Positions 3,039 to 47,086 of a stretch of 51,657 nucleotides of DNA are shown piece after piece. The notes below the pieces were generated by a model. That model had not been told where the DNA came from. It ran no database searches and worked only from the letters and a program-made list of their open reading frames with translations. Location: positions 11,814 through 63,470 of the forward strand of contig PDIM01010341.1 of NCBI GenBank assembly GCA_002811675.1, given 5' to 3'. Made by a program: the position numbers and the translations under genes. Origin of the DNA: Ichthyosporea sp. XGB-2017a. Taxonomy: Eukaryota; Opisthokonta; Ichthyosporea. Position 1 is the stretch's first letter, and each line of letters opens with the position of its first letter.

Positions 3039-3266
3039 TTCCCGAGAAAAGCCTACGGTGTTCTGGGAGGATATGTTTGGTTGACTTGCAATTGCTTATA
3101 GAAAAACCGCCGGGTGGGTTCGCGGAGTGAATGCACGGGATGATTGCTTGTACGTACTGTGCAGGTTGAAGGCAATTATTTTGGTTTGAAAAGAAAGTAA
3201 AAATTGCGTTTTTTTTTTCTTGTTTACGCTTGCTATTTGCAAATAATAGCTGTAAAATATGAAGGT

Positions 3267-3272
3267 AATAAA
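3267..3272 (+). terminator. Poly(A) signal AATAAA, POLDIP2
   Basis: A perfect AATAAA lies 229 nt after the POLDIP2 stop, in the 288-bp space between this gene and the convergent ankyrin gene. Confidence 0.45.
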
Positions 3273-3326
3273 CAAAACTTAAAAGGACAATAGTAACAGG
3301 GAAGGGAGGATACTTTGGATAAGGCG

Positions 3327-5207: not shown

Positions 5208-5773
5208 CTAGTCGATGGGAAGAGGGATCAAAGGAGTCGAGTCACTGTTAAACACAACAAAATGCCTCACAGAGAGACAAAGCAGCACAGAGTTGAGCGG
5301 GGGAGAGTGACTTTTCTTGGTAGGTAATTTTTTCTGTAATATTTCCTTCTAAACAGGCACCTCGGCACAGATTGAAGCAAAAAAGAAATCCCCAAACACC
5401 AGCCACCGGAAAGGTAAGAAACGCAGGAGCAAATTTGAATCCACACAAAACTCAAATTTAAAATTTAAAAACCCCAAAATAGAAGAAGCCGCGAAGAAAG
5501 AAAAAGAAGAATCCGGGCCCGGATATATTATTTCTGTTTCAATGTTTTTGGTTTAGCCGCCTTTTATTTTCCCTTTTTTTTCTTGTAATAATTTGTTGGG
5601 TAATTGAACAATAAGGGCTGCACTGGAATTGACACTGGCCACTGAACACTCCAGCAGGGGAACATGAAAAGGGGGCAGGAGAAGAAGGAGCACTTGAATA
5701 ACGGGGCTCCTTTGCGGTGCATCCCTTTGTCCCTGTACACTGTTTGTTGTTCACCACTGCCTCCTTCCCCTCC
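5208..5773. other. Intergenic: ankyrin promoter side and thiolase 3' flank
   Basis: 566 bp with no credible gene. It contains a minus-strand poly(A) signal (TTTATT on the plus strand, 5563-5568) about 206 nt past the thiolase stop. The part nearer 5207 must hold the 5' UTR and promoter of the ankyrin gene, where I see no clear motif. Confidence 0.6.
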
Positions 5774-14600: not shown

Positions 14601-14684
14601 GCCCTCTCTTCCTTCTCATACTGTGCACCAAAACACTTATAAAATTCCTCCAGTTCCATCTCGCCACGCTCCAGGGAGGCAAAT
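11666..14684 (-). CDS. ACAD10: ACAD10-type HAD / aminoglycoside-kinase-like / acyl-CoA dehydrogenase fusion, 5' end missing
   Basis: At least 1,000 aa, open into the assembly gap. The frame continues upstream of the ATG at 14659 as [14 protein letters not shown], so that ATG is internal and the start is in the gap. Domains, numbered from that Met: the C-terminal half of a HAD hydrolase (ALTNNW about 57-62; [17 protein letters not shown] about 121-128); an APH-like kinase fold (about 210-480, HGDYRMDQ at 394-401 and [11 protein letters not shown] at 415-425); and a full acyl-CoA dehydrogenase (about 590-997, [47 protein letters not shown]). This three-part fusion is characteristic of ACAD10; ACAD11 lacks the HAD part. 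The family acts in catabolism of unusual (4-hydroxy) fatty acids. The HAD nucleophile motif would be in the gap. Single exon as far as visible. Confidence 0.9.
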
Positions 14685-15444
14685 NNNNNNNNNNNNNNNN
14701 NNNNNNNNNNNNNNNNNNNNNNNNNNNNNNNNNNNNNNNNNNNNNNNNNNNNNNNNNNNNNNNNNNNNNNNNNNNNNNNNNNNNNNNNNNNNNNNNNNNN
14801 NNNNNNNNNNNNNNNNNNNNNNNNNNNNNNNNNNNNNNNNNNNNNNNNNNNNNNNNNNNNNNNNNNNNNNNNNNNNNNNNNNNNNNNNNNNNNNNNNNNN
14901 NNNNNNNNNNNNNNNNNNNNNNNNNNNNNNNNNNNNNNNNNNNNNNNNNNNNNNNNNNNNNNNNNNNNNNNNNNNNNNNNNNNNNNNNNNNNNNNNNNNN
15001 NNNNNNNNNNNNNNNNNNNNNNNNNNNNNNNNNNNNNNNNNNNNNNNNNNNNNNNNNNNNNNNNNNNNNNNNNNNNNNNNNNNNNNNNNNNNNNNNNNNN
15101 NNNNNNNNNNNNNNNNNNNNNNNNNNNNNNNNNNNNNNNNNNNNNNNNNNNNNNNNNNNNNNNNNNNNNNNNNNNNNNNNNNNNNNNNNNNNNNNNNNNN
15201 NNNNNNNNNNNNNNNNNNNNNNNNNNNNNNNNNNNNNNNNNNNNNNNNNNNNNNNNNNNNNNNNNNNNNNNNNNNNNNNNNNNNNNNNNNNNNNNNNNNN
15301 NNNNNNNNNNNNNNNNNNNNNNNNNNNNNNNNNNNNNNNNNNNNNNNNNNNNNNNNNNNNNNNNNNNNNNNNNNNNNNNNNNNNNNNNNNNNNNNNNNNN
15401 NNNNNNNNNNNNNNNNNNNNNNNNNNNNNNNNNNNNNNNNNNNN
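14685..15444. other. Assembly gap (run of N)
   Basis: 760 unknown bases. The gap removes the 5' end of the ACAD10-type gene and the rest of the Tnp2-like gene, so the boundary between them cannot be placed. A transposon insertion breaking the ACAD10 5' region cannot be excluded. Confidence 1.
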
Positions 15445-18154: not shown

Positions 18155-21100
18155 TTATGTGCCATTGCCAGATTCCTCCTTCTTGTGATTTGTAGGGGCT
18201 GGAGTTTCTGCATCGGCAAATTCCTCATTAAGTTTCTGTTTGTATATTACAGTGTACTCTTCGCACACACGTGCATTGCACTTTCGCTGGCAATATTCAT
18301 ATTTTTCATGATCTTCTGCCGGTCGTTGAAATGTTAATTGAATACCACTTGGGTCAGGTTCTTCCGAGTATACGGGAATGCAACAAATTCTATATGGGCA
18401 ATTTTCCCAATCACTCGATGTGCCATTCATCATAAGCCGTTCAGCTCCTTCAGCCTTGCGAAGCACCTGGGAGTGACTTGCTTCTTCTACCTGTGCAAGA
18501 ACATCCCTAAGCTTATCGTGCGATCCTTTTTCGTCTGTGTGAGCAGTAAAAAACTCTTTTCCTGTTACCGGTTTGGCTGCGATGCCAAACAGGGCCTTTT
18601 GCCAATCTTCATCTACTACGGGTTGAAGAAGTGTGAAGTCTCTTCGTTCAGCTTCCTCCGTTAGAGAGCACTTGGTTGACTTTCCGTCATCCCCTCCACT
18701 ATCCACGGTCAAGCACTTCTGGTTTGGATCCGTCGGCTCCCACACTCCTTGACCTTCGTTAGAAAGAACACACCGAAACTTCACAAGTCCTTTGAAATAC
18801 ATGGAGCTTTCCGGCCCTTCTTTTGTATTGAAAGTAATGTCCCCACAGTCTTCATAATGAACGTGGTTGATGTATGACTTGGGGGTCATTATAGAGCCGT
18901 AAACTTCAGATACATCGGTAAGCACTTTGTCGATCTTTAATGGGTCGCACAAGATAGGCTGGCATATTTTGGCATAATGAGGAGCATCTCTTTCTACCCA
19001 CAAAGGATCAACCTCATCCTCTTCTATTTGAGAACAACCTCTGCTGGCATAATAGAACCCATCAGCTACACGTGTGCCTACAGGGCAATCAATGTGTGAC
19101 ATCCGTTTGAAAGGGGTGTCTGGCCACTGAAGTTTAGCGGAGAATTTCCCATGTATGGCTTCATTGTTGGAAAATTGGGGCCAAATTTCGTGATAGTTAA
19201 TGGTGACAATACTTTCTCGTGAACGGCAAATCAGTGGAATACACGCTTCCAGAAGCTGAAGAGGCTGGGGATCATCCCAAGATGGAACCAACAAGTCATC
19301 ATTATCCTTGCTTTCTTCATCGCATCCTTTGCATGAGCACAGACGGATCACGGCAATCTTTTGATTATCTAAATGCTCTTGCAAAAACTCTGAGCAATCC
19401 ACATATTTGCCTTTGTCAAAATTGGAAGCTATTACTCTAACAGCCCCCCCCTCAAATCCCTCACTACACGTATCTCCTGTAGCACTCGCTATTGTTTCAA
19501 TAAATTCCTCATCCTCACTTAGCAATGCACTGCCATCTTTTCCGTTCCTTATTCTGGGATCTGCTAACCAATTTAAGTCAAAGACCTCCATTAGTTTTTC
19601 TCTCAAAGTATGCCTGCGCCTTGGATTAGGCCTATAGCTACTCTTACACCTCAATGTAGAGTAACTGAATACCGAAGTTGCACTAAACTCTTTTTCCGCC
19701 ACTCCCAGGGAGCCTGAAGAGGAACCAAGAAAGTTTAAAATACTTTCGGGTTCGCAGCTAGTTTTACCACACCCTTTTGTTACTTCAAATTGTGGTCTAG
19801 CCAGCTCGCGATCCTCTTGGTCGATTTTTAAGATGCACTTAACAGAGAGCATATTATTGAGCAATGTTTGGGATGTTTTACTTATTCTCTTTTCATCTAT
19901 GAACAACTTTTGGGTCACTTCATCCTGTGGACAGGGTAGTTGGATTGTATTGGTGGCATCCACAGGCCTTGGAATTAATATTCTTTCTCCTTCCTGAATG
20001 TCCTCATATGAGCTTCGATAAATCATTTCTTTCAACTCTGTTCCAGTTAGAAGTTTGGGATAGCCTTTCTTAGCGGCGTCAATGCTATTAATATTTGTAG
20101 CGCTTGTCGAAACACCAATGTTCCTTCCATAAAATAACCGAACTGCTTTGACATCAAGGGGACCATCGGCATTCAACATATTGCTATTGGATTCGGGCCT
20201 AACGTTAGTATCCGCTGTGTTCGTCATATACCCAATCTGCTCAAAGTAGTTTTCCGGAATTGGTGTGGTGCCGCCCGTTAATGTCATGAACTCTTTAATT
20301 GGTTCAAAGCATTTGGGAATGACGCATTTACCATCTGCTTTCTGCCACTCCCCATTACATCCACATCGGACGAAAATATTTTGCTTCGTTGGAGAAATAA
20401 AAACCCGCTTAATGTAACGGTCATTTCGCAAAAATTTTACCTCCTTTAGCTTATCACCCTCACAAGGAACCACTGCAAAAACCCCTCCGTGTGTCTCTGG
20501 CAAAACAAGTCCATCAATTGTTGACTCTGTACACTTACGAGGATAAACAGTTTCTACCTCTTTCTCAGTTTGGTTGAGCTTATACGTGACAAAGTAATCG
20601 TGAAGTGCCTGCTCATATATTGGTATGAGCTTTTTATATGGCAATGCCTTCATACCGGATCGTTCCATGGCTCGATAATGTTCGATCACTTTGTTTATGA
20701 ATGCAGTATCGTTTGCCTGGGCTAGTCGAATCGCCGTGCGCCCGTTCAGATTGCCCATCGTTGGAGGTGAAGCCTCATCTTCAAGGAAGAAAGATCGCCC
20801 ATAAGCAGGGATTTTCTTATCATGTCGACATCCATCATCTATAATTTCAAACTGTCCACTAGGAACCTGATCCTCCCATCCTTTGGGAAGACAAAATCTG
20901 TGAACAAAACCTTTAAGACCACAATTATCTCCTTTTGTAGCGTCAATAATTGAAACACGATCTGCAAGAACAGGAGCATGAGGATCCCTTGTTCGATGAA
21001 AGCCTTTTGGATATGGACCTACGTAGGAGCTGGTAAATGATATTGGATTGTACTTCATTGCCCAACCTTTTGTAATGGCCTCTTCTTCACAATACTTGAT

Positions 21101-24100
21101 CGGGCACGTTTCAACTATTCGAGGTGTCCCATCAGCAGTTTTGCTTAAGGTTAACGCACCAATCTGTTTCCATCTTCCAATGATATCGCCAGGGTTTCCT
21201 GAGACACATTGACGATAGACAATTCCGCTGTGACTGATTCTATGCGAAGCCCCAAAGCCATCTACTCTATTACAATAGTCTTTAATTTTTTCTCCAAATG
21301 CGACCCTGCGAAATGGCATTTTTACCTGGATTAGAAGTAAAGTTTAAGGAAGGCTAATTAGACTTTATCGATCAAACAGGCTAGCACCTTGCACGTCACC
21401 ACTAATGAATCTTAAACTGTACTTACAATATGTTTTTGCCTGTCATAAAATTCAATTATCTATAATTAAAACATAGTTACAAAAAGCATTGTTAGAAACT
21501 ATTGAGGCAGATGAATACTTCAATCCTAAAAATTATACTTTACCGAGCGGCCGAAGGAGTCTTTTGGGGGCATTATGTCCTGATTATTCCCATCGTAAAT
21601 CTTCAGATTGCGGGCAATAGCGTATGTTTCTAGATCGTGAGCAACTGTAAAGATGTCCAGTGACCTAGTTTTTAACCAGCTCTTCCAGGTCAGTTTTTCT
21701 CCATTATTAGGGTCTACAACCACATCGGTTCCTATTACGTAGTCTTCTTCTTCTTGATTATTTCCAGTTAATGGAAAATAATCGAAACCAAGCTAAATTT
21801 TTCAATAATCAAGTATATGTGTTCAACGTATGTTAAAAAAACAAAATCCGTGAGTACGAGTTATGCATTTTACATCTCAAACCTTTAAATGCTTTAAACG
21901 TACCTCCTTGTTAACCTTGAAATAGAGTGCATACCATGAGCGTAATAAGTTGTTCACCGCGAGCTTTGGAGGTTCTTCGTATTCCCATTTGCTTATGGGA
22001 TCCCCTGCCTGGTTATTTTCATAATTAATACGCTTATTAGAATAAAGATACTCTGCAGGGCATTTTGGAATGCCTTTTCCACTTTCTCCACTCGTTTTTG
22101 GATCCAACCCCCCATTATTTTGATCATTATCTTTAGAGCTCGCATTCTGGTAGCCATCCTCGATGTTCTCTTGGACTTCTTCAGACCCTTCAAAAAATAT
22201 TGCAGGGCAAATCTGTTTACGGCACCCTGCTGTAAGCACTGGTGACCATTTGGCTTCGCCCACGCTTTTAGGGCCCTTGGAGGGAAAAACTACATTTTCA
22301 TTAAAAGTATAACAAAACAAACATATTAGAACAAAACAAACAAAAGAGAAATATTAAAGTGAGTGTTGTTGCGCTAAGTATAATAACACGTACTTGTATC
22401 ATAGAAGCATGTGAATTTCAAAGATCCAAAATATCCTGAAGGACACTCTTTGACTGTCTGCTTTCCTAATGCCATAGGTTGAAGCTAAAGAGGCAGAAAG
22501 TGAGAAGGTTTAGTATTTGATCTTCTGTACGCTTTTGCATTTAAAGCCCAAGTCAGTTTAACAACTTACCACATCGCCTTTGTATTCTCCCAAAAATATA
22601 TACTTTTTCGGACTCCCTTCTGGGTCCAATGCAGATTTGATTCTGTTCCATAACGAATCCGGTTCATTCCTGTTCACCGGAGTTCTTGATACTTCGTCGC
22701 CCATGTCCAATACTAAGCTTGGATCCTGAAGCTCATCGGTGTTCAAAAATGGTAAAGAATACCAGTCAATATAAAGGCCTGTATATCCATTCAATTTGAG
22801 AAACCTCTTTGGCTGATTTGGAGTTGCTGGAATTGATTGAACATCTTCAGGTGTCTTAATTATCATGTTTTTAAACCAATCATTAACATCTTCCGCTCGC
22901 CGGGAACGACTTAAATCCTGTTTACTACTTGACATTTGTTTACCACTGATTTTGGATTTAAAGGGAAAGGCCTCTACGTACCAATCATTCTCCGTAATCT
23001 TATCCTTTAAAAACTGTTCTGTGAAAAAGGGACAGTCTTCTGTATTCGTTTTCGAAATAGCTTTACAGGCAAAGTACTTACTTAAATCGAAGTACCAGTA
23101 TTTTAATATAGACTTTTTATCACATGTAGCGATGCCACACATTGATTGATACTCAAAATAGTTCGAATTTGTCACACAAGATCGACTACATGTTCCACTC
23201 AGCATAGGCGATATTTCCTTGCAATCAATAACATGTCCATTAATGCTATTTGCATTTTCGGCAGTTTCTTTTGCGTCGCCTAAATGTTTTTTTCTCAAGC
23301 GCAAAGCTAAGCTTTCTGCGTGAGTCATTTTATAAACCTCAACATACTTCGAAGAGTTATCGTCTTGGGACGGGATTTTAGCTTGAAAAGGATATTCAAC
23401 AGTTTTGGGATTCTCATAGTCAATTCCATACTGTTTAAAGGCTTCTATGCGGTCCGCCTGATTTTGTACGCCTAATGGAACGCATCCATCATATACCGAT
23501 CGCAATTTCTTCACCAATTCCTCATCTTTGTCAATTTTGTACGATTTGCTTTCAATAGATGCTTTTGAAATATCATCACTGCACGTTCTTAGTTTACAAG
23601 AAGGAGGCATGGGTGCCATTGACTTTCCTATGCTTGAGTATACAAACCTCCATATAGTTAATGTATTTTTAACATTTTTTGTTGCAAGATGATGGGCTTG
23701 ATTCTTCTCCTTATACATATCAAATAATTGCCGATCAGGTTCGTATGGAGAGCCTCTCAGAGGCTCGTCTGGGTGTATAAATGCACTCTCCCTTGACTCT
23801 TTGTCTGGGAAAAGCAATTTTTCATTAAGGTCCTTCTCATTTTCAACCAGCTTACATGAAGGTGTAAAAGTTTCCTTTTCTGCAAAAACGGAATCCGCAT
23901 CTTCTCTTTCCAGTCCCATTGAAGGAATCTCCGGAAAGGAACACTGATATTCATAGTCCGATGTTGCATCAATATTCAAGGTCTCAAATGAGGTTTTGAA
24001 CGTCTTCTGATCAGTAACGTATATGCCGTTCGGCTCATCTGAAGCTGTGTTTGACATTCGGTAGAAACTGTACTTCGTCATTTCGGTCAGCTCCTTGAGG

Positions 24101-27100
24101 TGAGGATCCAAGTTGGCCAGCTCAGGGCACTCGTTGTGCACACATCCATGACCCGCGACCAGTATCTCCTCGGCTCCACTATTTTTGCGATATAAAAGTT
24201 GATGTCCTTTTCGAAAGTCATACGATGGCAACACTGAGGAATGTTGCGCTTCATTGTAGCCTTTAGCATATATTGGCGCGGTAAGCTCTTTGCACTTTTT
24301 CTCCACACACTTTCCATAATACGACTTAGTCGAAACCCCCATGGAAAAAAACGGGGGTGTAGCTAAGCTTTTAGAATACATTCCCGGTTCAATATGCTCA
24401 ATTTCACCACGCCTGGCTTTAGTACTTGTCACAGTCCCTGCCTTACCTTGACAGCCAAGCTTGCCACTCTGAAGTAAATGCACAATAAGGGAAGTTTTGC
24501 AATTCTTTTGATTTTCGGCCTCCAGGCCATCATCAACCCATACGGTTTTCGCTCTTTTCGAAGGCATGGCTTGCTCAGAGACCCTTTTTGCTCCCCCGAC
24601 GTCAGAGGTTTTATCACACGATATATCTTCTGAAACAGCCACTGTTCGCTTGCCCAAAAGCCCATAAAACTCTTTCACGATCCCCCCTCGACACGCTGTT
24701 TTTTCCTTATCTCCGTCAACATCTTTTAAGGTAATAGTGACACATTCTTCCACAAATTTGTGTAATAAGCGCATGTGGTTTGCAGGTGTCAATTCAATTG
24801 CAACTCTGTGCTTACAGCCTGGATCTACGACAATATCTAAGTGCTCGTAGTATGTGGTACCGGATTCACCTAATATGTTTTGAAATACGGATTGCCAAAA
24901 CAACTCTAGATTAAAGAACTGAGTGCTATCGAGAGCTAAGACGCCGCCATTTCCATTTAAACCAGTGACACACGGGAAAGGATTGTTCACACAGAGCATA
25001 TACGGCTCATCTTTCTCCTCCAATGGGTCAAACACGTGTTTGTTAACACATGCGCAAGGAACCTTAACTGGTGCATAAGACCCAAGATCTCCATAGCTAC
25101 CTCTAGGATTCTCAGGTTGTAACATATCGAGAATTCTTTTGGATGATTCTATTTCCGCATATAAGTCTATGGGTTTGGAAACCATTGGCATTGCCTCCAA
25201 GTCTTCCACAATATCTGTACCAGGAATGCAACTCTTCCAGAGCTTTGAAGACACTGTTTTTACGTTAAAGGCAGCACATTGCTTCCTTTTGTATTCCCCC
25301 ACAGGATAGTTAGTTTTGAAGTCAGTGGCATCCCCAATTGGTGAACGATTCTTGAAATCCATATAAAGCCCTAGGTCCATTCTTAACTCGAATCCCCTTT
25401 TAAAATTGTGTTTCATTATATTAAACTTGCTCTTGAAGTTGCTATTCGTAGGCTGAATAAAATAATCCATACCATAGACATTACGAAAAAATATCTTTAG
25501 TAATTTAACTTTCCATTCAAACTTCCCACTTAAGATCTCTGTATCGGTCTTGTACCTTCCCGACTCTTTCTGCACTGAAGTTACTCTATTGGTCACTAAA
25601 TTTGAATCGAAACTTAGCAACCGCACTTTTTTTTTGAATTCTTCTTGATCTTTGGGTTTGCTGGGGCACACATAATGTGGGAAGGATATAAAATGTTTCC
25701 ATTCCCCTACGTTGGGTGTACTATTGTGAGTGGTAAACCATGTATGTGAATCATAAAGATGGTCACTTGATGAAAGTACATACCATCCATGCGCAACCGA
25801 GGGGGGGAGGGCAAATGAAGTCATGTCATAGTCAACGTCAGGGAATCGATACACAAATCTGTCCATTGGGGGGGTTTCATATCCGTAGTCCTGGCCGAGC
25901 TCAATAGTGACTTCTTCGTTGTTTTCTTTAGCAAATGCTGAATTCAGAGCATCAGAGTCAAACGGTGCAATTACTGTGCGCCCAAGACAGTGTAGCTTTT
26001 GAGGGTACCAACACATATCCGGACTGATCCCGTTCCAGTGAGAGAAAGGCTCGTATTCTGAGCCATCATCATCTGTGATTTTTAACGATATTCCATCATA
26101 CACTTCTTTTTCAGGAACAGCGGCGATCTTCGTGTCGTTCACAGAGAATTGTATTTTGGATAATAATAAATCGATATCTTTGTCTGAAACCATCCTAAGG
26201 CCGTTTTCGTCAAACGAATATGGGAGCGCAAACATTTCGTAGAAGGAACATGCCGGGTGGGGAAAGCCAACTCCTTTATCGTCCAGTTCTCTTACCATAG
26301 CCAAACAATAGTCCTCCACCCATTCAAGGAGTCCACTGAAACGCTTATTCTTGGAATCCAAGCACCTCCCATCGATTTCCTCGCTCCTTCTAACCATTTC
26401 TACTGAACGATGCTCTGCCATAGGAGTGTCAAGGTAATGTGATTGCAATCTCACCTTTTTCTCCCCATAAACCGTAAAGAATTCTTCTTTCAATGGAATC
26501 TCCAAGGGAGCCCCCTCACTGAATATTTTGTATTGGTTCTTTTCTTTCTCCTCGGAACATTGTATGGCCGATGATTGATCGCACTGCAGTTTAAGAAGAT
26601 ATTTATCTTTGAAGGCTTGTGATATAACAAAGGGAAGTGGGATAACTTTTTCGCAGGAGGTCATTGTCATTCGACCCGTGGTCATGGAGCATGTTCTGGT
26701 TGTGGATACAGAGCTTTTCCCCTGATTGACAAGCTTCAGGCTTCCCTCAACGCCCGGACAAGGAATGGTTTGGGATCCATAGACGAGGTTACTATTATAC
26801 TAAACATAGTAAAAACAACCACAAAACCGGGTATGCGCGGGGTAAATATAAAGAGAATAAATACAACACAAGATAACATTAGAAGATTAAAAAGGCTGCA
26901 CAAACTTACCGTGTCAAAAAGAGTTTCCCATTCCACTCTCTGCATTGAATCTGGGCATTCCTCTCCACTCCTTTTTACAAGCTGCCCCAATCTCTCTTCA
27001 TAATTGAAGTCTTTAGCAGGCACTGGCTCAGATCGTAAGCAAAAATCATCTGCAGGAACAAAGTACTCATCGGCCTTTGAAGAAAGCCCTTCGAGAATTT

Positions 27101-30100
27101 TTTGTTTGGCATTACTCCATATTGAGTCTGTAGAGCGAGTGATCAAAATAGTGTTGGTGAAGAACATTTGATTAGTGTTGTAATTCACTCGCGAGCGTAC
27201 ATCTTTTGCACTAAATAGCGCAGTATCATCATCAAAAGCCCTTTGGATATCTTCTAGCATCGCCTGAAAATCCTGGTTCACATATGGGTCACTGGTCGGG
27301 AATGAGTAGCGATACTTTGGAGTTTCTTTTTTGTTCGAATGTGGCGGTATAAGCACTACTGCGTTATAAAGATCAGCCAGTGGATTATTTCCCCGAGGTC
27401 TAAAAGGTTCTGCGAGAAAAGAAGATTTCGTCCCAGGACAAAAAGGAGGCACAAAATAAAAGTCAATTTTGTTAACCGGGATAAGCTCAAAACTGTGCTC
27501 TTTTAGGGCCCCTGGCAATTGAATTCCTTTGACATATCCAAAGCTTTGGACCATTTGTCGTATAGCCATACCATTGCCACTCTCTACCTTCACCGTCTTT
27601 TGATTGTCTTCATGCTTGACACGCACCATCCACTCTGGAGTTAGGCTTCTGTATTCAGCCGATTTGCCGAACTGCTGTTTGGACCATTCGCTTCTAATAT
27701 TATCCTTTCTTTGACGCTGAATAGTCGAGCTAAAAGCTGTTGTTTCACCCAAGACAGTTCCTGAAAATCCACACACTACTCCAATGGATTTAGCAGGAGT
27801 GATGCTATTATCAGCTCCGTAAAATGTTTTCTCCACAAAGTGAATTGCATGAAAGTCATTTCTTGAATTTCTGAAGGCACCCTTTAGGTACGCATCAATA
27901 TCTCCCGAGAGACTCAGATGCACAAGAGTGTTCACCACTACAGGATTTTCGATATATCCTTTACGATTTTTAAAGTTACTATGTGCGCACCCTGTTACTT
28001 CGTATTCAACTTTTTCACTTCTTTTGCACATTGTGTGAAAGTGACATGGCCCAGTGTTTTGGGTTTGGTCAGTGAAAACACTTTGCTCCGGGGAAATGGT
28101 CGCCGGTGTGTATAGAACTCCTAATGTTGCTGTTTCCATTGGATTCCAAGTGAATGCCATTTCATCTCTGTTTGTATCTGCATTATTTCCGTTGAACGAG
28201 AACATGTTTTTAACCTTAATAAGTTTCGTCTCAATATGTTCGCCGGCTAGAGTGTCTAAATCTAATTTACTTCCCCCAGATTTTGATTCTTTCCATTTTT
28301 TATGAGCACCACGTGCCCATGTGCACTCGTTTTCTCCTTCTCCATCTGGCTTCATTGCACAGCTCCTGAAGTCCTTCTTGTAGGCACTTTTTGCGTTTTC
28401 AAACGTGTCTTCCAAACCCCCTTCCATTGGTTTGCTCCATATCATAAAGATATCCTTAAGTGGTGGACAGAAAGAAATTCCTTGGCACTTATCCACAATA
28501 ATACGCGTCAGCTTTCCATTTACAGCCCTGCATCTATGCCATACATAGTTATCCGCACCTGTTCGAAACTGCGGTTTACAGGGAATTTTAAAAATGGCAT
28601 CTCCTTTGTCGATGTCTACACTGTCCAAAGGCAGGGATTCGTGCAGTATCTCACGCAAAATGGGGTCTACCCGGTCGTGGTACGCCATTTTTTTAGTTTT
28701 GGGGATGGCCGGACACCTCGGGATCTGGCATGTGTTGATTGTCTGCCCCCAAAACCCCGAGCCTGAACAATACTGGCAAATGGAAATTGTATCTTCAGGA
28801 CCCACAGGCTGGTCCTCTTCTTCACTGGCAGGCGGTGAAGCTTCACATGCAATAGACTGAACTTCTCCAACCTCCACTGATTGGACCTCAGTAAGCTTCC
28901 CTTTCATGAGAACTTTCCGTCCAGGACACATTCGAGGTAAACATTCGCCTGTCAGGTTAGGCATTTCCCCGGGAGGACAAGCTGTTTGAACTGGAGGGCT
29001 ATCCGTCAGAGCACTAAGGTCAATCATAGATACACTATCAGTTTGATCGGCTCGTTTTTCTCGAAATGTAACCCGTTTAAGTGGCAGTGGGGCGTTTTGG
29101 CTCCCACACACTGAATTCTGTGCATGAAATTCTGAGCAGGCCATGCAGATACTACTGGTGCCATCATTTACCAGAGCGTGCCCGACAGCACATTTAGAGC
29201 ACACGGCCCCAGATGGACCCTTACTGCATGTCTGACATGGATTTACCAAGTCCATTGTTGTTTCAAGTGTGAAACTATAGGCTGGGCCATCCCCCTTTAG
29301 TCCTATTCGCTTGGCGTAAAAAAGGGATATCTTGTGGGCTATCTGCTTGCTTCTTTCAGGCATACGTTTTGTTGCATCCAATGTTCCGGATGGGGGTGTA
29401 TTATCTTGCTCACTCGAAGCGTAATTGAATTTTGCGAACCGTATATGTTCAGTTGCTGGGGATCTAACCTTCTGTGTGTATTGGAAAGAGTCTGCATTGT
29501 CAATATCACATACATTTTCGTTACCCTTGTTCATTAACTCACAGCACTGCTTCATTTTCTTCTCTGCCCATTTTTCAGTAGCAAGTATATCATTGTTCGA
29601 ATTGAGAAACGCTGTAAGTGCCTCTTTCGTAAAGGTATAATCACATACATCGGGCGACTCGCCTTTAGATTCTTCGTCCCATTCAAATGAATAATGAAAC
29701 GCAGTAAAGGTATAGTCATCTTCTTTTTCTTCATACGCTCCATCGTCAAAGTTGAGAGGATTGGGGGGCCTAATAACGACAATGGCATAACTGCACTTCA
29801 AGTATTTTTCATTGGTCTTGCGAATACCTCCTAGATCGATGATTTTGTAGTGATCAAAGTAAACCCACGCATCATCAACGCTACATACCTTGAAAACTCC
29901 AACTTCTCGCACCTTAGGGTCTTTGTTCTCTGGGTAGTAGCCGGTTGCAAAAAGTGTAGTTCGAGCGGTAAAAACTTCCTCATCATGGTTTCCTCCTTCT
30001 TCAAATTTCCATCCCAGTTTACCAATCTTCGATACACTGGCAGTTTCCATGAATTTGCCAGGTTTTGAAAGTTCCACCCTATTTTTCTTAGCTTGCTTTG

Positions 30101-33100
30101 AAGTTGGATGAAACCACAAGTGGTAAGTGTACTCAGTAAAGATGCTGTGTCGATCACTTTGTTCCTGATTGTTTGAATACAAGCAAGGCACATTCTAAGT
30201 TGCCGAACAAAAGAAAAGCGAAAAACAAACAAATGGTGCCACGTCTCTGTCACAATACTTACATCTTCTCCATTTCTGATCAACGGTCGAACTCTGTACA
30301 CTGGTAATCCTTCTGCAGAGAGCAAGTCTTCGAGCTCATTCGTAGACCAGCCAACTCTGCTCGAGCAATACTCACTCGAAATGGCGTCACATCCACGAGG
30401 AAGCAAGTAGGAAATCCTTTGTTGTGACTCGGTTAATTCATTTGAAGCTCGACGTCTTCTTCCCTGTGAATGATCAGCGAAAACTCCTATTTCGCGATAA
30501 AAGCATTGATAGAAAACAGAAGAGACACAGCAAACACAAGTTAATAAACATCCAAATATTCGTTTTTCTTCGAGAAGCAAACGTTTAAAACAAAATCTTA
30601 CTTTTCAATGCCTGTTCATAGGTATAGCTATTCTCTCCAGCAACATCTTCTAACTGTTCAAAGAAGTCAGGGTGGAGCTGAAATTCCTTCCTGTTTCCAC
30701 CCTTACTGGGGTTAAAAAAGTTGTAATATATAGGAACATCTATAGGTACTTCTGTCTCACACTGAGGCGTGCATCTGGTACGCTTGAGTTCGTCATTGTT
30801 TGCAAATTCCAAATCATATTTGTTCTTTTGATGCTCGCCACATTTTCCACGATGTGTCTCTGCTAGACGAAAGAACAAATCAGGACAGTAGAACATGCCA
30901 GCCCTGCTACCTTCTTTGCCTTTACCATTATTTTTCACTGAAACTGATCTGGCCGATTGAAGAGTAGGAAATGACATAAACTTCAAGTTTTCGTTGCTCT
31001 TTACTTGAAAGTTACAGCTTATTTTCGCCAATAAAGGAAAACCGTCGATGGCCTGATATTCTCCTATGTTCCTAACAACGAAGTTATTTAAGACCTCTCG
31101 TAATTTTGGAAACCCGGACAGGACAAAATCAGCATCAACAGTGTTACTTCCAGGGACAACATAGTCAAGGTAACCCCCGCTAGCACCAGCACCGCTCCCC
31201 GTAAATGCAAATAATTCTGGTGGTGTTTTGTCTTCCGTTTCTCTATTAGGGCCTTCCAATGGGGCATACTCATGGCAATTATTTTCAAATAAAAAATCAA
31301 CAACCCCTTCGAGACTTTCAAAGCCAGTCATTCTACACAGATGGGCATTATTTGTTATACTGAGAGTTCCATCGATGCGTTGTAGGAAAGGGAATGCATT
31401 CATGCTTCTTAAGTTATTGTTAGTGGCAATAGATAGTGAACTTGTTCGCATATCTCTTAACTGTCCAAGGATTGTGTTAGACAAATGCACGACTTGACTA
31501 TCTTTGTCGCTTGTCGCGCTCATTTCTCCGCATGAGGTCAAAATAACATCACAATTTTCAATAACTTCCACATCATCCAGCATTCTTGGGTCTGCAATAC
31601 GAATGCTCGAATCCGTATGGACAGCGACCGTCCAGGTCTCCAAGCACACTTTTAGGTTTGATTTGCTAGAGCACTTGATCTTTTCGCAATTTGTTTTCTT
31701 ATTCATAATATCTTGCTCATTGCATTCAAGCAGTTCTCTGGTGTCTCCTTGTTTTAGATCTTGAACCTCAAAGCTGAAGTCAAGAACCACACTTTCCGAT
31801 TGCTTTTTAAACAGAGTTGGCTCTTGAATATATTGATACCTAATTTACACAAAAACCACCAAAGGAAAGCAAACATTGTAGTTGATTAGAAAAAGAATAC
31901 TCTGGTTCACAAAGCAATACAAGAACCACGTCTGGTCATATTGCCCCCTAGCGGGAGCCATCCACAAGCGATACTTACGAGATCGTCAATGGGAGACTGA
32001 CAGTAACAGTGCCTTGGTCTTTTACACCACTGAAGAGTCCAAATGCAGCAGCTAGCCCCTCGTTAAGAAAGACACATGCCTGTGCCCTGGAAGATCCTAC
32101 ACCGTGCTCCTTACAGCTACGTATCTCCACCAAGGAAGCGTAAGCTACGAAAGAAAGTACATCACAAAAGTAAAGGGAAAAAAGCAACAAGAAAAGAAAG
32201 ATTCAGACTCAATAACGATTAACAAACAAGAAGATATAAACAAAATACGCAACACAATTAATGTTTCTAATAAATGGTTCCTTACATATTGATTCGTAAT
32301 TTTTAAACTCCTCTTGATATTCTTCACCTATGCTATTCTTCTGTAAGAAAGCTTGGGTAGAGTAGTCCGCGTCCGGAGTAAGTGGCTGCCCTTTGGGAAG
32401 TCTCAATTCTTTGTTTTGCTTGTTTACTATAGGCTGACCATAGTGAATCTCAAAGGTGGAGCTCTCTGTGTTCAACGGCATATTGTCATATGTGGATTCT
32501 TCGCATCCATTCAATTTGAGGACCCCCAGGTTGTGCATTCTCTGGAAGGCCTTGATACGCGCTCGCACAACAGTCCTACTCCACTGACTGGGAGTGTCAG
32601 ATGGGTTAGGCGCTGTATCGCTGAGCACCAGGGGGGATTCAAAATCCACATAGGGCCTATACAGACGTCCAAGCTTAGCGTGGGTGTCACACTCCCCCTC
32701 GGCATCACCACCACACCGAAGGGCAAGGCCGCACTTGGTGACCGAAGATATTTTGGCGTTGTTGATGCGTTCTGCCAACTGTGCCTCTGTCAGTGCAGTC
32801 GCACCGCTGCCAGTGCCATCTCCGTACTTCCAATCGTACTCAATGAAGGCACCCTTAAGTTTCAAAGAAAAGGACACTGGGGCAGAATACGTGTAGTCGG
32901 AGATGTGCCGTGTGTTAGAGAGGTCAGAGGATTTCATGACTAGCACCATCTCAATCTTAAATGGCTCGTCCTCTTTGGGGTAGACCTTGTTTTTCTTCAG
33001 TTCGGGAGGAGTAAAGTAAGGGAATTCGGGATCCACCCATCGGGCATACACCTTACCCGTCTTGTGGTCTACCCTGATCATGGGTCCGTAGTCATAAGCA

Positions 33101-36100
33101 TGCGCGTGAGACCGTGATGTTGGTACGGGGTTGTGTTTGAGGTTCCTGTAGTCAAACACGTTGTGCACAATGATATTGTCAATATTGTACTTTTCCCCAA
33201 GCTTTTGCCACTCAGCCTGGTAGTCACGCATTGAGGAGGAGGGCGAGTTTAACGTCCCAATTAAAGATTGCTTCGTAAAGGGATTATTGTGAGTGAACAT
33301 ATAGTTCCTCATCATTTCCTCATAGTTGTGCAACTGTGTAGACTCGTATCTTCCTAGATGTAGAGCAAGCTGGCCCAACTCTACGTACCAGTCTTCATCA
33401 TCCGGGAAGTATCGGAAAGTCTGTACGTAGCGATCATTGGACTCGCTTTCTAAGGAACCATTCTTTTCGGTAACAAGCTCATAATTAAGGAAGCTCAGCT
33501 TTACCTCCACCAATTTTGTTTGATCGTTGGACTTTGGTACAGCTTCACGAAGTTTTCGTACTCTGTCTGTATCTATGTACACCAAATGATAGTCAAGATT
33601 CCCCACCTTCTTCTCATCTGCCATTCTAACATGAAATTCCATGACTTTTTGTGTTAATGGGGCACATTGATTAGTTGATTGATTGATTTAACACCAAATA
33701 ATAACAAAAATGGCCATTGAATAAGTAAATAGCTTAAAAGTATAAAAGTAATATAGAAGCGTCCATCTTATCTTCTCCTCCTTACCTGAGTGTGTGGAAA
33801 TTGACATTGCATTCATCAACATATCCCTGTCCTTCTTTTCCCCTCTATAAAGCCGGTTTAAATCAGCTGGAGAAACATCGTCCGTGATAGCGACATTGCA
33901 CAAAAATCCTTTCATAAAAGTAGCTACTTCTTCATTGCCCATGAGTTCATTACACAGACCAGGATCTACCATCAAGCCAGTAGTAGTGAAAATCACACAA
34001 TTACAGTAGAAGGTTTGTTAGACGAAAAAAGCGCGCATTCTCAATTTACGCTAACAAATACTTACGGCCCTGTACATAGCAGTATGGGTACTCTGTCCTT
34101 GTAATTGCATTCCGAAATGGAATGTGAACCTGGGATGGATCATAGTCAAGGATTTCGCTATTGGCAATCTTGCTGTTATCTTTGGAACCGCTACCATTGT
34201 CCACAAACTCTCGACGCCTTCGCAATCGCCCAAGTTGTTCATTTGTGTTGGCATTGGCTAAGCGCTCAATTTTTAACAATTTTGCAATGGCTTGATCTTC
34301 CATGTACGAGCGCCGAACGGAGTCATCTAGAGTAGCACCATGTCGCTCGCGAAATATATGCCCGTTCTGAACCCCTCGTTCAATATACTAGGGTAATGCA
34401 TAAGCGCAACAAAGAATTAGACGAACAATCTTTCAAAATTACACCCATTCGTAAATACTACTTACCTCTGATCTACGATGCAAATCGCTCGGGGCGCCAG
34501 CGTAGAAAAGTTTAGCATAACTGTGCTGCTTTACTGGGAAGTTTATGTTATAGTAGCTCTCAACTCCGATTCCATGCTCCTCTACAAAGCTTTGCCATCT
34601 CTCATCAACAGATCTTCTTCTTCTGCACCAAAAGCAAAATATCTTTTTGAGCACTTTAACAGTTTTTTGCACCCCTTTAACAATTAGTCGTGCAGCAGCG
34701 CTTTGAGCGATTGCATTAAAGGTATCCGCCAGGGCTAAGGCAGCACCTTTACAGATGCTAGAACTTCCGCAGACTCCTGTTGTGGATCCCGGAAGATCCT
34801 CTATAGGCTTTACTGTACACTCATAAATAGTATGCTGAGGCAAAGAAAATCCACTTGAACCGTAATGCCCCTTAAAGTATCTTACCAGAGGCGTCCACAC
34901 GAGCTTCTTCACAGCAGCAACCATTTTTTCAAACAAATTACGGTCATCAGTCTCTTTGAAGTCATCGTAGAACATAAATTGGTCAAAATGGTCATTCATT
35001 TCGATTGTAAACTGTTTTGAACCGCTGAGGTCATATATTTTCAAAAGCTTTTCTCGGCACTGGTCATTCATATTCGGCCATCCATCTAGACGGCCTTTAC
35101 CCCTCAGCATTGTATACTCAAATAGGTTATCAAATACCTTCTGAAACTCGATCGGGTGTCGTTGTTTTGCGTAAATTCCCGCTGCAAAGTCGTTAGCTTT
35201 CTTGAGAAGATCCGGATCTTCTGAAATCCAGTAAGGGCTCTTCATTCTCGATTCTACTTCTTCTCGTACTCCGTACGTAAGCTTGAAATCAATACCACTG
35301 TTTTTGAAAATGAATTCCTTTGTACCACAATAAGTGGAGGGAAACGTGTGCTTCCATCGTACCTCTTTGAGAAGTCGCATTGCTATTTCGTCACACTTGC
35401 TAACTCCACAATGCGACGTACACTTATCATAGTTAAACGCAGAGGTTAAAGTTTCCGTTATCCTCTTCACTTGGTCATTGTTAAAGCTAAAAGCACCTGC
35501 CACTATTTTAATGACCCCTTCAACTCCAGGACCATAAACCATATCATGTAGTTTGGTACGCAAATGCTCCTTATCGGCATCACAGTAAAAACTGTCTAGA
35601 ACGACGCGCAGTTCCCCTGTCAGGTAACTGGCACACTTTTTGCACAATTTGCTCATGCATCCCTCTGCAGTGACCCTGGCACACCCCGCTCTTCCATCGT
35701 GGGCCAAGCGACACTCTTCTGGCTCGCCTTCAGAACACGATTGTTTTTCTTCCCACTCACCATGCATATTGCAATTCTGGAATTCCTTATCACCAATGCA
35801 CTTCCCTTTTCCCGGCACACATTCTACGCACATTGCAACGCGCTCATAGGGAGATGAAAACTTTGGAGCAACCTCGCTGCATAGAGGTGTTTTCTCTCCA
35901 CAGCGATGTTTCTCCTTTTCACTCCATAGTCCACGCTGACAATTAACAAGATATTCTATGCCCCCATGCCCCTCCTCCTTAAGACATTTGGTCTGCCCTG
36001 TAGCGCATTCTCTTTCAATGCACGTTCCAAATGCACAGATTTTGTTGATTAAACTGCAGTCAAAGCTGTGCTGGTACACTGGTTTATAGTCTTTACCGTC

Positions 36101-39100
36101 TAGTTTAATATTATATTCCCTCTTGGGACCCACACAAAATTGAAGTAAATTCTCGTTAAGACATTGTTTTGAGCAGTTGTCTGTTGGCAAGGCTGCGTTA
36201 GTTCCACAAGAATAGCTCTTCAAGTTTGTTGTTTGCAAACCTTTGATATTTGGTTTGGGGCACTGGTACTCCACATACTCCCCCTTCCCATTACACTCCT
36301 TGTATGTTTCAGAAGTAACCTCTATACGTGATCCAGGTACGCATCCACAAACCGACTCTCCCTCCTTCATGTGGCAGTATTGATTGCCATACGTTCGCTC
36401 AATAGGGTGGCCATTAATATCTTTTCCAGATGTGCATGATTCCTCTTTTTTTACATTATTTATGCACATAATTCGGGTGTTTTCGTGACACAGCGGCTCC
36501 ATTTGATTCCTGCACTCAACACACTTTCCCTTTTCACAATAATTGTCACATTCCTCAATATATTCTTTATCTTCTTGAACGTCCATGCTGGGCCACAGCA
36601 GGTTGCTTTTACATACAATTCTGTGTTTATCGCCATGGCACATAGCATCGCCATCGTGACATTGTGATTTTTTGCATTCGTTGTTATCACACACTTCGTC
36701 CTCACCACACTGCTCTTTAACAACATATCTAGTGCCTTTACCGAACATGTTAGGGCATCTGTAGATATGATTTGATACTTTGTCTTCCACGCTCGGCTCG
36801 CATATGGGGAACTGTTTCTCAGTGCATTCAGTGCAGTGCGTTTGACAATATGGATCTATTTCAGGGCAAGCTTTCACCACCCATCGCTCAGACTCACAAA
36901 GTTCATATTGGCTTTTACTATTCAATGTATGGCATCGACGCTCACCATTTTCACATATTCTCCGGGACACGGCACCAACTGGGTTAGCCCGTGAGCCAAT
37001 GTGAAGATTTCCAGCCCGAGCTACATGAGAGTTGCAATTGAAAGAAAAAGTGTTAGTTTCAAGTAAAAAGCGTTTTTAGTACAGCAGTTTGTTCATCCAG
37101 ACCAAGAGTATACTTACTTATTGGGCCTCGAAGTAAATAAGCCTCCACATCAAAGCTTCCATAAGGATCAATTTCTATTTTGACACCATCTACGAACAAA
37201 CTAATTACTTGGTCAATCATTTCTTTCTCCCAATTTTCACCATCCAACTGAAAGATATCTTCTTTTAAGCTTTTTATCCACTCCTCACGGTTTTTTATGG
37301 TTTTCATTTTTGCAATAGCCATTTTATGTTGAGCGTCTGAGGCCGGTTTGTATGCAAAGGTGATGGTATGATGCTTACCATCGCTGATTTGAGGGGCGTA
37401 GATATTTTCTAGGAACATGGACACACAGAAGCAGAGTCAAGTCAATGCCAATTATTGTTAAAGTTATTTTTTTTTGCGCGGTACTTCAGCATTACTTACC
37501 AAATACTACACTCGTCGACGGGAAGTTAATTCCACGATAAAGAAAAGCACTTTTTGGTAACTTTCCTTGCTTGTTTTCGCTCGATTTAATGTTCTTTGTG
37601 TGTGAATCATACAACTCATGGATATCTATGTTGCAGGTCATATCATCACCTTGCTCGTCCTTGCGATAGTGACCTCCGTGGGGGTTGCTCCCAGTAAACA
37701 TCTGGGTGGCCGTGTCCTTAACAACAAATCCCTTTTGAAGATGATTGTAGTAAAGTAACAACTCGGAGCTGTATAGTTCAAAATCAACGTTTTGGTTATA
37801 GTCTGATAAATCTCCACAACACATTTGTTCAGTATATGAATAAGACAAAAGAGGACTTCCTTTAGCATATGAATAACTTGATTTCTCGCATTCCCTCTCA
37901 GCATCGTCATCTGACAATATCTTTCCCTCGTTATCAGGCAAAAAACAGATACTTTGCGTTGTTGGCTCTACCGTCACTTCGAAGGATGCATACAGAGACG
38001 GAAGAAACATGCCACTCAATGTTGATGTTACTCTTTCAATATTATTCCAACGAGTAGAGCATGTTTGATAGGTATAGTCTTTAAAAAATAACCTGGAAAC
38101 ATGTGCTCCAGGGGTAACATAGTCCGGTTTGGCAACAGGGTTAAAATATTCATCTTCATTAGCCTCTTCTTCCATTGAGTGACTGGACATATCTGTTTGG
38201 AATCTTCTTTGCTTTTTGGAAAACGCGATCGGATTTTCATTATCATCAAGCTCTGGAGACAAACGTGAGTAGGTAGAACTCTCATTGTTGGTGCTGGTAG
38301 TCCTTTTAAAATTGTAATTCCCAGGGGGTTTAGTGCTCGTACTATTTCTTTTGTTTTTCCAGGGTACTTCATTAGAAGCACCTTCTTCTTGATTACTCCT
38401 TCTACGCCTCTCCGACCTCTTTTCGTTCGCTAGTTTTTTTGTTTCTGAAGCTGTTTTAATCATCTGCAACCCAACTTCAGAGCTTGCAGCTTCAAGCTCT
38501 TTTCTCATTGATGATCCTATTCGCAGGCATACAGAGGCTCCAGAGAAGCGATGGTCTTTGCCAGGGTTCTCATAATTCACATTATATATAATTTCTGCAT
38601 CATCAGATATATAGAAAAGATCGTGATTTTTAAATTTCTTTTCCAAAATTGGATAGGTATCTTTGAGGCTGTAGTCATAGTCGATGTTGGGTGCTTGAAA
38701 GAAAACAGTAAGCTCACTTTCTAAAAAACGAGTTGGTGAAGAAACATAAATGTCAAACTCTTTTCTTGATTTGGCATTATACTCAGTCATTGTAAGGCGT
38801 CCCCAATTACTCTGGGCATTGACCGAGTAGTGACTTCCCGAGGAAGAGCCCTGATCAAAATGTATTTTTGTAGGATTCGCAAAGTCGAACAGAAGCTTTG
38901 GATAAAGGAGACTGTCCACTAGTGATTGCTCGTTCGTACTTGCAATTGTTTTTGAACTAGTAGATAAAAGTACAGGAAGCCACCTGATGGGTCGCGGAAC
39001 AACGCTCCCCGCGTAAGGATTAAAGTATTTACTTGTAGAATGCTTGGACATATCCAGCATGCATTGCCAGTAAAACCGATACCAAACCTCCAAAATATTG

Positions 39101-40180
39101 TCATAGAACTGAACTGCTCTTTCTTTCTCTGAAGGAGGCTTGGGATATTCTCTATATATATCAAAATCAGCCCCGAATTGAATTTTACCAAGTGGCGCGT
39201 CTTCGATAGCCTCTCGCGTTTGCCCATCGATACCAGGGGTACTAAAGAAATGCCTCCACAAATCTAAAATAAAGCCCAGCAGAAAATGTTGTTTTAGGCA
39301 ATCTTGTCAAAAGTCTAGCGCATTTGCACACCATTTTACATACTTACCGTAAGCATTATCATACACATCTACCACCTTCTTTTCACTTCCCTCCATTTTA
39401 GCCAAAATTGCTTCCTGTCTTTCTTTGAAGATGGTGTCGTATTTGTGGTCGACATAGGGGGATTTCGGTTTTGATAGGCCAATATCATTATAGACCTTGT
39501 GATATTCGCTGTCAAAATCCTGTCTTTGTCGAGTGTATTCGAAGATGTATCGCCCCACACAGGAACTCTACACCGTACACAGGGTGGTAGTGTTTGTTTT
39601 TGTTATACATTTTAGTAAAGGGACAACAAACAAAAAAAAAGTCTATGCTATTGACGTTTTTTTCATTACTTACTGGGCTATCTATATAATCCTTTGGGGT
39701 ATTCTTGAACACTTGTGTTCCCTCGCTCTACAAGAAGTCAAAAGAAACACAGACAGTGAATAAACAAAGAGGTTAGTCAGGTACGCGTGTAAAACAAGAT
39801 AACACTCAGGACATGGAGGTGCTTACAATTTGAGGATAATAGTCTTTCAAGGAAGAATCCCATCTCTTGTTATAGTTATCATCGACCTTTCTTAGCTCAT
39901 CGGCAGTGCTCTGTTTTGTTTTCTTCTCGTCCCGTGTCACTAAACGGGATCCATTCTCCGCATGATTCGCCTCCTCCTCCGTCTCTTCATCACTCAAAAA
40001 ACCGCGGGCAATCAGGTGACCCTGTACAGATTCGTAAACGCTGTTGAGGGCGTCCGCAAAGGGCCACGAGGACGATTCTGTTTCCACGGACTGTGTGGAG
40101 AAAGATGCGGTGCTTGGGGCAATGAAGAGACAGGAGCAAAGGCAGAAAAAGAGCAAGCAGAGGAAAGTTGGACTTTTCAT
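18155..40180 (-). CDS. Giant secreted modular protein, 18 exons, about 6,712 aa
   Basis: Exons (high to low): 40180-39827, 39727-39674, 39567-39348, 39263-37500, 37408-37118, 37020-34466, 34387-34066, 33965-33786, 33644-32286, 32144-31979, 31839-30602, 30486-30263, 30194-26910, 26799-22570, 22484-22394, 22289-21904, 21792-21544, 21325-18155. All 17 introns are GT-AG. Exon lengths sum to 20,139 nt (6,713 codons with stop) and every phase matches, the main evidence for a single gene. Signal peptide at residues 1-26 (hydrophobic Leu/Phe/Cys core); no clear membrane anchor and no lipid-anchor signal. Modules in order: a Tyr-rich N-terminal part (about 200-900); a Cys-rich block (900-1360); a receptor-L-like block (2520-2740); a fibro-slime/PA14-like domain (about 2780-3030); a Cys-rich motif near 3230; Sushi-like junctions in the C-terminal half. 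I recognise no full-length relative. An extracellular matrix, cell-coat or adhesive role is inference. Least certain boundary: exon 9 acceptor (AAAAAG, no pyrimidine tract). Confidence 0.8.
29830..30750 (-). other. Fibro-slime/PA14-like domain in giant protein (end of exon 11 to exon 13)
   Basis: Hallmarks appear in family order: an opening strand with a 'hpDF' motif (VPIYYNFFNPS, then FQLHPDFFEQLED), an 'EGLPVYRV' segment in exon 12 matching the family's 'GkPvy', then in exon 13 the DD-containing beta hairpin (FKVCSVDDAWVYFDHYKIID followed by LGG). The last motif matches the fibro-slime 'DDDvWVFI.gklv.DLGG' core, with one Asp fewer. Such domains occur in Dictyostelium PSI-type proteins and bacterial surface proteins, often binding carbohydrate. 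The domain spans two introns, which also supports the exon joining. Confidence 0.55.
30880..31500 (-). other. Receptor-L-like block in giant protein (exon 11)
   Basis: Successive units of roughly 20-25 residues read like receptor L-domain/Ecm33-type beta-helix coils: SLSIATNNNLRSMNAFPFLQ, then GTLSITNNAHLCRMTGFESL, later NFVVRNIGEYQAIDGFPLL and NFQVKSNENLKFMSFPTL. The pattern (L.I..N..L..+..F..L..I.G) is known from the insulin-receptor L domains and fungal cell-wall proteins. This is motif recognition only. Confidence 0.5.
35630..36990 (-). other. Cysteine-rich module block in giant protein (exon 6)
   Basis: About 450 residues carry dozens of cysteines in loosely repeating units of the form C..G...C......C....W......C......C (examples CHDGDAMCHGDKHRIVC, CVPGKGKCIGDKEFQNC, CATGQTKCLKEEG). 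Each unit probably forms two or three disulfides. The pattern resembles repeat modules of secreted eukaryotic and myxobacterial proteins, but I cannot match it to a named family. The rest of exon 6 is Cys-poor and helical. Confidence 0.7.
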
Positions 40181-46755: not shown

Positions 46756-47086
46756 ATCCAACGAAGCCAACGAAATTAGCAAGTCCTATGCGACCACAAC
46801 AATGTAACGGTTTTGTAACTTCCAACCATTCCAGCTGTAACGGTGCTCGCTAGCTAGGTGTTGGTGTGGTCTCGTGAGTCGTGGAGTGTGTTGCAGTTGG
46901 TTTGCTTTTCTTGTTTCTCTTCCTGCTTTCAACGGTTCCAGCCCCTATTCGTCATATTGCATTCTTTCTTTTTTTGCAAAGAGGGGTCTTAAGAATAGGA
47001 GAAAGAAAACACTGTGCGAAGGGCGTTAGGATTTGCGACATAAAGGATAAATCAATACAGTGGTCCACTTTGCAGTAATTGCAACA
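46756..47086. other. 5' flank of the LRR gene
   Basis: 331 bp with no LINE sequence. It must hold the LRR promoter. No strong TATA element seen. A 65-codon hydrophobic frame at 46881-47078 lacks an ATG start and is probably 5' UTR. Confidence 0.5.

Follow-up and report, generated by a model that had tools for sequence, protein, structure and literature searches.

What does a 22-kb run of open segments on the minus strand of an ichthyosporean contig encode, one gene or several, and what kind of protein would it make? The locus lies in a 51,657-nucleotide stretch of contig PDIM01010341.1 of Ichthyosporea sp. XGB-2017a (positions 11,814 to 63,470; the whole stretch is hereafter the window), and a first-pass annotation had read it as a single gene for a secreted protein. 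We find that the spliced window reproduces, letter for letter, the 6,713-residue EukProt protein Nk52_evm15s235 (also P0003; hereafter the giant). Nk52_evm identifiers denote proteins of Chromosphaera perkinsii (PMC6981761), a putatively free-living dermocystid ichthyosporean (PMC5560861). The gene was thus already publicly annotated before this analysis. The best reading of the protein is a lineage-specific secreted scaffold of the matrix, wall or envelope, and we consider it fairly probable that it is one secreted, soluble, disulfide-rich modular scaffold of the C. perkinsii cell surface, wall or envelope.

Gene model and exon structure

The gene opens with an ATG at 40180 and closes with a stop codon ending at 18155. 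The exact splice match bears out the single minus-strand gene running from a signal peptide to one stop, its 6,713 codons and its frame-keeping GT-AG introns; the earlier count of 18 exons and 17 introns has to be raised to 19 and 18 (the eighteenth is one 101-bp intron). All introns are of the GT-AG type and 78-141 bp long, nine being in phase 0, eight in phase 1 and one in phase 2. That the phases are compatible is in itself weak evidence, as such sets usually turn up when looked for. The stronger point is donor enrichment: of the 13 GTAAGT hexamers on the coding strand within the gene, 11 serve as donors, as do 15 of the 28 shorter GTAAG words, the other 13 lying inside exons. The introns are also T-rich (0.40 versus 0.26 in exons), and retention of any of them brings in a stop or a frame shift (18/18). 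Before consulting the annotation, we also built a dynamic-programming model over GT-AG introns, taking its codon scores from the long open frames of the gene itself. It predicts 19 exons and 6,741 residues, shares its start and stop with the public model and has 14 of the 19 exons identical; given this training, the agreement tests consistency and is no blind proof. The published annotation pipeline for C. perkinsii drew on RNA-seq in general (PMC5560861). Taken together, these observations confirm, at the level of sequence, that the gene is real and forms one gene model.

The exon number had been thought to stand out among the neighboring genes. It is ordinary for the species and follows from the length of the gene, since its density of 0.89 introns per kb of coding sequence compares with 0.7 in conserved orthologs of the species (PMC5560861). 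The protein carries no precomputed Pfam domain, and it was the sole protein returned among 1,535 candidates in a search admitting lengths of about 2,475-7,875 residues. With exon 14 as the query, none of 3,975 candidates matched at E 1 or below, under a length filter of about 777-2,472 residues that excludes even the annotated giant. These protein searches require shared exact five-residue words and are length-restricted, so that a diverged ortholog could escape them. An Rfam scan of the window gave no match. We found no published description of the giant in the titles and abstract openings of the literature on C. perkinsii/Nk52, on matrix and wall, on fibro-slime, receptor-L and PA14 domains, on giant choanoflagellate proteins and on palintomy, most subscription journals lying outside this coverage.

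Shared modules and the putative tail array

No full-length relative had been recognized, and none appears in the protein searches made; a partial relative does exist, a paralog of about 950 of its residues on another contig of the same genome. This protein, P0001 (Nk52_evm36s343; 2,219 residues; contig C250, L009:2820-9521, where the open reading frame (ORF) is 100% identical), was found by a Recep_L family search of the genome, whose four matches lie on three other contigs. Like the giant, it is an exact EukProt match to the genome searched here, a 25.06-Mb assembly of 291 contigs that is smaller than the published 34.6-Mb assembly (PMC5560861). Residues of about 2450-3390 of the giant are collinear with residues 396-1160 of P0001, passing in the same order through a receptor-L region, a fibro-slime region, a Cys-rich stretch and the first HRM-like module. 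Judged against residue shuffles (200 for the first three blocks, 100 for the last two), the alignments reach z values of 9.2 for the receptor-L region, 8.0 for the fibro-slime region, 4.3 for the next stretch and 3.9 for the tail of the giant against the HRM array of P0001, the N-terminal parts scoring -0.1. Own-genome protein queries were made with exons 4, 6, 13, 14 and 19: exons 6, 14 and 19 retrieved nothing but themselves, exon 13 also the fibro-slime core of the P0001 locus on C250 at E 0.1, and exon 4 also one match at E 0.99; exon 4 has no Pfam match up to E 1.

The kinds of module that the first-pass annotation had named are recognizable in the giant. The receptor-L-like region matches PF01030 at E 1.5e-4 (22.3 bits, cut-off 21.8); that of P0001 scores 21.5 bits with hmmscan and 28.2 in the genome search. 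The fibro-slime core matches the NCBIfam family TIGR02148 at E 0.0064 (16.9 bits) and E 0.017 (20 bits), below the cut-off of 45, and we therefore call it fibro-slime-like without filing it as a member; P0001, with 25.3 and 29.3 bits, also falls short of that cut-off. The giant shares the core D-x-W-V-[YF]-x-D ... K-I-I-D-L-G-G with the fibro-slime proteins of slime molds and bacteria, from which it differs in this low score. The Cys-rich units correspond to a 49-Cys block in exon 6, in which the pattern C-G-C-C-W-C, picked by eye after the sequence was read, occurs four times against a shuffle mean of 0.20 (0/2000).

Several further candidates were set aside. A LamG domain suggested by eye at residues of about 780-935, including exon 5, finds no LamG family in Pfam up to E 10, and LRR_9 (0.01 and 0.0036) was dropped since it overlaps the receptor-L region. 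Matches to TPR_16, FXa_inhibition, Cep192_D4, Trm5_N, CATSPERG, TOPRIM_C, HP0268, HexPS-like, Zn_Tnp_IS91, SlipAM, Glyco_hydro_7 and PilZNR (Pfam, E 0.014-0.36) were taken as chance, as were matches to the solved structures of ComZ (0.042), prefoldin (0.47 and 0.68) and a beta-glucanase (0.049); the remaining solved-structure searches with the giant gave no match.

The Sushi-like junctions of the first-pass annotation hold in kind and define the tail. Over the last 3,480 residues there are 15 C-x4-C spacings where 3.4 are expected (0/500 shuffles), an excess not seen for spacings of 2, 3 or 5; the array of P0001 has 12 C-x4-C against 3.5. A profile of the HRM-like repeat, built from P0001, a second protein P0002 and an ORF on contig C189 without the giant, reaches 5.7 bits at best on the tail (0/200 shuffles as high) and -1.5 bits on the head (19/200). 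Pfam HRM (PF02793) scores 18.0 bits in exon 19, under its cut-off of 26.2, and Sushi (PF00084) gives no match. The median distance between junctions is 50 residues in P0002, 73 in P0001 and 167.5 in the giant. We read this as a sign that the tail modules of the giant were probably enlarged by insertions; single tail modules fall below profile cut-offs because this pitch is more than twice that of the P0001 array. HRM is described in G protein-coupled receptors and in Fonticula membrane proteins, and a 2025 survey gives it as largely restricted to holozoans (PMC12716839).

P0001 thus resembles the giant in having a signal peptide (by eye), a receptor-L region, a fibro-slime region, a Cys-rich stretch and an HRM-like array in the same order, with C-x4-C enriched in its tail. 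It differs in starting with three PAN domains where the giant has about 2,400 unrelated residues, in its shorter junction pitch, in lacking any R-x-[KR]-R site, and in being just mildly low in glycosylation sequons; its HRM modules, moreover, are recognized by Pfam (PF02793, 1.2e-40). P0002 (2,238 residues) and the C189 ORF (2,053 residues) share with the giant HRM/Sushi-type modules of the form W-x-x-T ... C-P ... G ... C ... W ... C, joined by C-x4-C in P0002. They depart from it in that both show, by eye, a hydrophobic segment with a charged tail after it, as type I membrane proteins do, in listing no receptor-L or fibro-slime match (for P0002, among its precomputed domains) and, in P0002, in the compactness of the modules. 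A looser comparison may be drawn with SVEP1/polydom and similar animal Sushi-rich matrix proteins, which are very large secreted mosaics with a Sushi-type array. The giant is likewise a very large secreted mosaic; no homology is claimed. In contrast to them, it has no EGF, VWA or Sushi match by Pfam in its nine large open segments, save for an EGF-like match at E 0.12.

Some observations on these relatives stand on their own. HRM-type modules occur in ichthyosporean proteins that are not G protein-coupled receptors, P0001 being a secreted PAN/receptor-L/fibro-slime/HRM protein; an extra HRM match just past the end of its model (C250:88564-88680) indicates that this model may be too short. The C189 ORF (C189:34855-41013) has HRM matches, with Cys-rich repeats and a hydrophobic stretch seen by eye, and P0002 has 18 matches to the HRM/Sushi-like repeat profile. 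An 800-residue open frame at C10:111426-112667 contains repeats that resemble the PAN portion of P0001 (identities of 35% and 31%; lowest E 2.7e-24), and the ORF at C201:15109-17349 (L013:110-2350) combines a receptor-L region (4.5e-6) with an alpha/beta-hydrolase-like part (0.0022, below cut-off).

Secretion, possible processing and proposed function

A signal peptide lies within about residues 1-25, with a hydropathy peak at residues 3-21; the only other peak over threshold is a weak one at residue 2389, and there is no other clear membrane segment. Asn-X-Ser/Thr sequons number 16 over the whole chain, against 44.4 in shuffles (0/1000 as low), whereas 41 copies of the mirror motif are present. 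None of 13 comparison proteins is as depleted, the lowest being P0001 (8 versus 13.5, 65/1000), and the seven other window ORFs go no lower than 204/1000. As sequons should be avoided only where oligosaccharyltransferase can reach them, we infer that the shortage supports passage through the endoplasmic reticulum. The signal peptide, the want of a further clear membrane segment, the sequon avoidance and the module make-up together support a secreted protein, and one predicted not to be heavily N-glycosylated.

Six clusters of basic sites are spread along the chain (Table 1). R-x-[KR]-R occurs seven times against 1.9 in shuffles (1/1000) and RRRR four times against a mean of 0.037 (0/1000); R-x-[KR]-R is absent from the four multidomain comparison proteins (P0001, P0002 and the C189 and C195 ORFs). 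Furin and kexin prefer such sites, and the genome contains a convertase-type ORF (Peptidase_S8 4.5e-46, P_proprotein 3.4e-17). The clusters and this gene suggest that the giant may be cut.

We picture, in conditional terms, a protein whose HRM/Sushi-like array would have grown through large insertions inside its modules and that would go to the matrix or wall, where its receptor-L and fibro-slime regions may bind glycans or partner proteins and its array and Cys block may serve as spacer and disulfide cross-linker. A kexin/furin-type convertase might cut it at some of the six clusters, and the chains may stay held together. The structural or adhesive role proposed by the first-pass annotation is likewise putative.

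A number of results weigh against this picture and have to be set beside it. The first 2,420 residues are without identified relation in the searches made. C-x4-C is enriched in the head as well (8 versus 2.6, 3/500), six of the eight falling in the Cys block; the longest gap between tail junctions is 1,437 residues; and single modules score weakly with the repeat profile. Genome-wide searches with HRM (11 matches) and PF01030 (four matches) do not list the giant. Translated searches (tblastn) with P0001 reach the giant at E 2.2 and 8.2 at best, and the exon 13 query reaches the P0001 locus at E 0.1, so that the case for a relation between the two lies in the collinear order and the shuffle statistics, no single match being strong. 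The paucity of sequons is unlike a heavily N-glycosylated matrix protein. The basic-site motifs were picked after the sequence was read, [KR]{4} runs are not enriched (4 versus 1.6, 93/1000), and R-x-[KR]-R is present in two of the seven other window ORFs (5 and 1) but not in P0001. In sum, the sequon result argues for secretion, whereas caution is called for by the [KR]{4} control and by the genome-wide family searches.

Among the alternatives, the least improbable makes the giant an adhesin or a recognition protein that is released from the cell and has no structural task. Regions of the receptor-L and fibro-slime types, of which the giant has its own versions, occur in surface and secreted proteins. 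A related dermocystid, Sphaerothecum destruens, is a parasite (PMC11153136), C. perkinsii being putatively free-living (PMC5560861). The hydropathy scan shows no membrane anchor after the signal peptide, which argues against an adhesin, and nothing in the evidence here separates an adhesive from a structural role; we regard this alternative as unlikely.

We give a still smaller probability to a proprotein reading, in which the chains cut from the giant would be released and work separately instead of forming one scaffold. The six convertase-type clusters, which are followed by S, S, E, A, A and A, and the convertase-type gene would suit it, as would the mixing of Arg codons in three of the four RRRR runs, because of which these are not one simple repeat. 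The predicted chains, however, would range from about 108 to 2,015 residues and are not copies of one product, and mixed basic runs are not enriched.

Equally improbable, in our estimate, is a merger by annotation of two or more neighboring genes. A two-gene fusion would explain why the relations of the first 2,420 residues differ from those of the P0001-like part. Against the merger, all 18 gaps between exons fall within 78-141 bp and are bounded by GT-AG, 11 of the 13 GTAAGT words serve as donors, the frame is kept only if all 18 gaps are removed, and our model and the public one share one start and one stop. The exon 14 query, confined to shorter proteins, did not return the product of the gene itself, as expected if the model is longer, and the sequon depletion is a property of the chain counted as a whole. 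A viral origin is set aside, as searches of viral contigs with exons 14 and 19 found no relative and the gene has 18 GT-AG introns, as is a bacterial one, as searches of genome contigs found none for alignment A1 or exon 6, these searches being weak tests with a few short exact patterns.

Table 1. Coordinates of the exons, modules and basic sites of the giant gene in the window
Feature	Residues	Position	Strand	Basis
Exon 1 (start codon 40180-40178)	1-118	39827..40180	-	exact match to P0003
Exon 2	119-136	39674..39727	-	exact match to P0003
Exon 3	137-209	39348..39567	-	exact match to P0003
Exon 4	210-797	37500..39263	-	exact match to P0003
Exon 5	798-894	37118..37408	-	exact match to P0003
Exon 6	895-1746	34466..37020	-	exact match to P0003
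Exon 7	1747-1853	34066..34387	-	exact match to P0003
Exon 8	1854-1913	33786..33965	-	exact match to P0003
Exon 9	1914-2366	32286..33644	-	exact match to P0003
Exon 10	2367-2421	31979..32144	-	exact match to P0003
Exon 11	2422-2834	30602..31839	-	exact match to P0003
Exon 12	2835-2909	30263..30486	-	exact match to P0003
Exon 13	2910-3994	26910..30164	-	exact match to P0003
Exon 14	3995-5404	22570..26799	-	exact match to P0003
Exon 15	5405-5434	22394..22484	-	exact match to P0003
Exon 16	5435-5563	21904..22289	-	exact match to P0003
Exon 17	5564-5646	21544..21792	-	exact match to P0003
Exon 18 (33-nt micro-exon)	5647-5657	21427..21459	-	exact match to P0003; also in dynamic-programming model
Exon 19 (with stop)	5658-6713	18155..21325	-	exact match to P0003
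Cys-rich block (within exon 6)	917-1357	35633..36955	-	49 Cys, four C-G-C-C-W-C units
Receptor-L-like region	~2480-2760	30825..31667	-	PF01030; P0001 alignment
Fibro-slime core motif	2999-3031	29799..29897	-	TIGR02148 below cut-off; P0001 alignment
Tail, putative inflated HRM/Sushi-like array	3317-6678	18263..28943 (including introns 13-18)	-	15 C-x4-C junctions
RRRR before S	495-498	38398..38409	-	motif scan
RRRR before S	1694-1697	34613..34624	-	motif scan
RLRRRR before E	1800-1805	34211..34228	-	motif scan
RRRR before A (in stretch aligned to P0001 fibro-slime region)	2844-2847	30449..30460	-	motif scan
REKR before A	3277-3280	29052..29063	-	motif scan
RSRR before A	5292-5295	22897..22908	-	motif scan

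Neighboring frames and biological significance

Elsewhere in the window, an ORF on the minus strand (11669-14683) combines HAD hydrolase, APH phosphotransferase and acyl-CoA dehydrogenase domains and is presumably an ACAD10-like fusion. A 760-base run of N (14685-15444), perhaps an assembly gap, lies at the start of a neighboring minus-strand open frame. On the plus strand, a 1,329-codon open frame (47051-51037) has a leucine-rich repeat match (3.1e-7). Outside the window, the 1,149-residue ORF at C195:17404-20850, with PA14-like repeats and a LamG-like stretch seen by eye, is a candidate surface protein.

C. perkinsii divides by palintomic cleavage (PMC11153136; PMC5560861), a trait common to it and the inferred animal ancestor (PMC11153136). 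A bolder account would make the giant a matrix protein that is processed by a convertase and contributes to the envelope surrounding the palintomic cleavage stages. It would have originated among the dermocystids when large insertions inflated the modules of an HRM/Sushi-type array, roughly 2,400 N-terminal residues were gained and N-glycosylation sites were shed, as an independent invention of a large multichain matrix scaffold next to animals. Taken as a whole, we hold this account to be speculative and rather doubtful. On the more modest reading as a secreted scaffold, a 6,713-residue mosaic without a precomputed Pfam domain would still be a concrete candidate for the layer enclosing cleavage-stage cell groups. 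More generally, if modules can be enlarged until each falls below profile cut-offs, domain counts may undercount the extracellular proteins of the relatives of animals.

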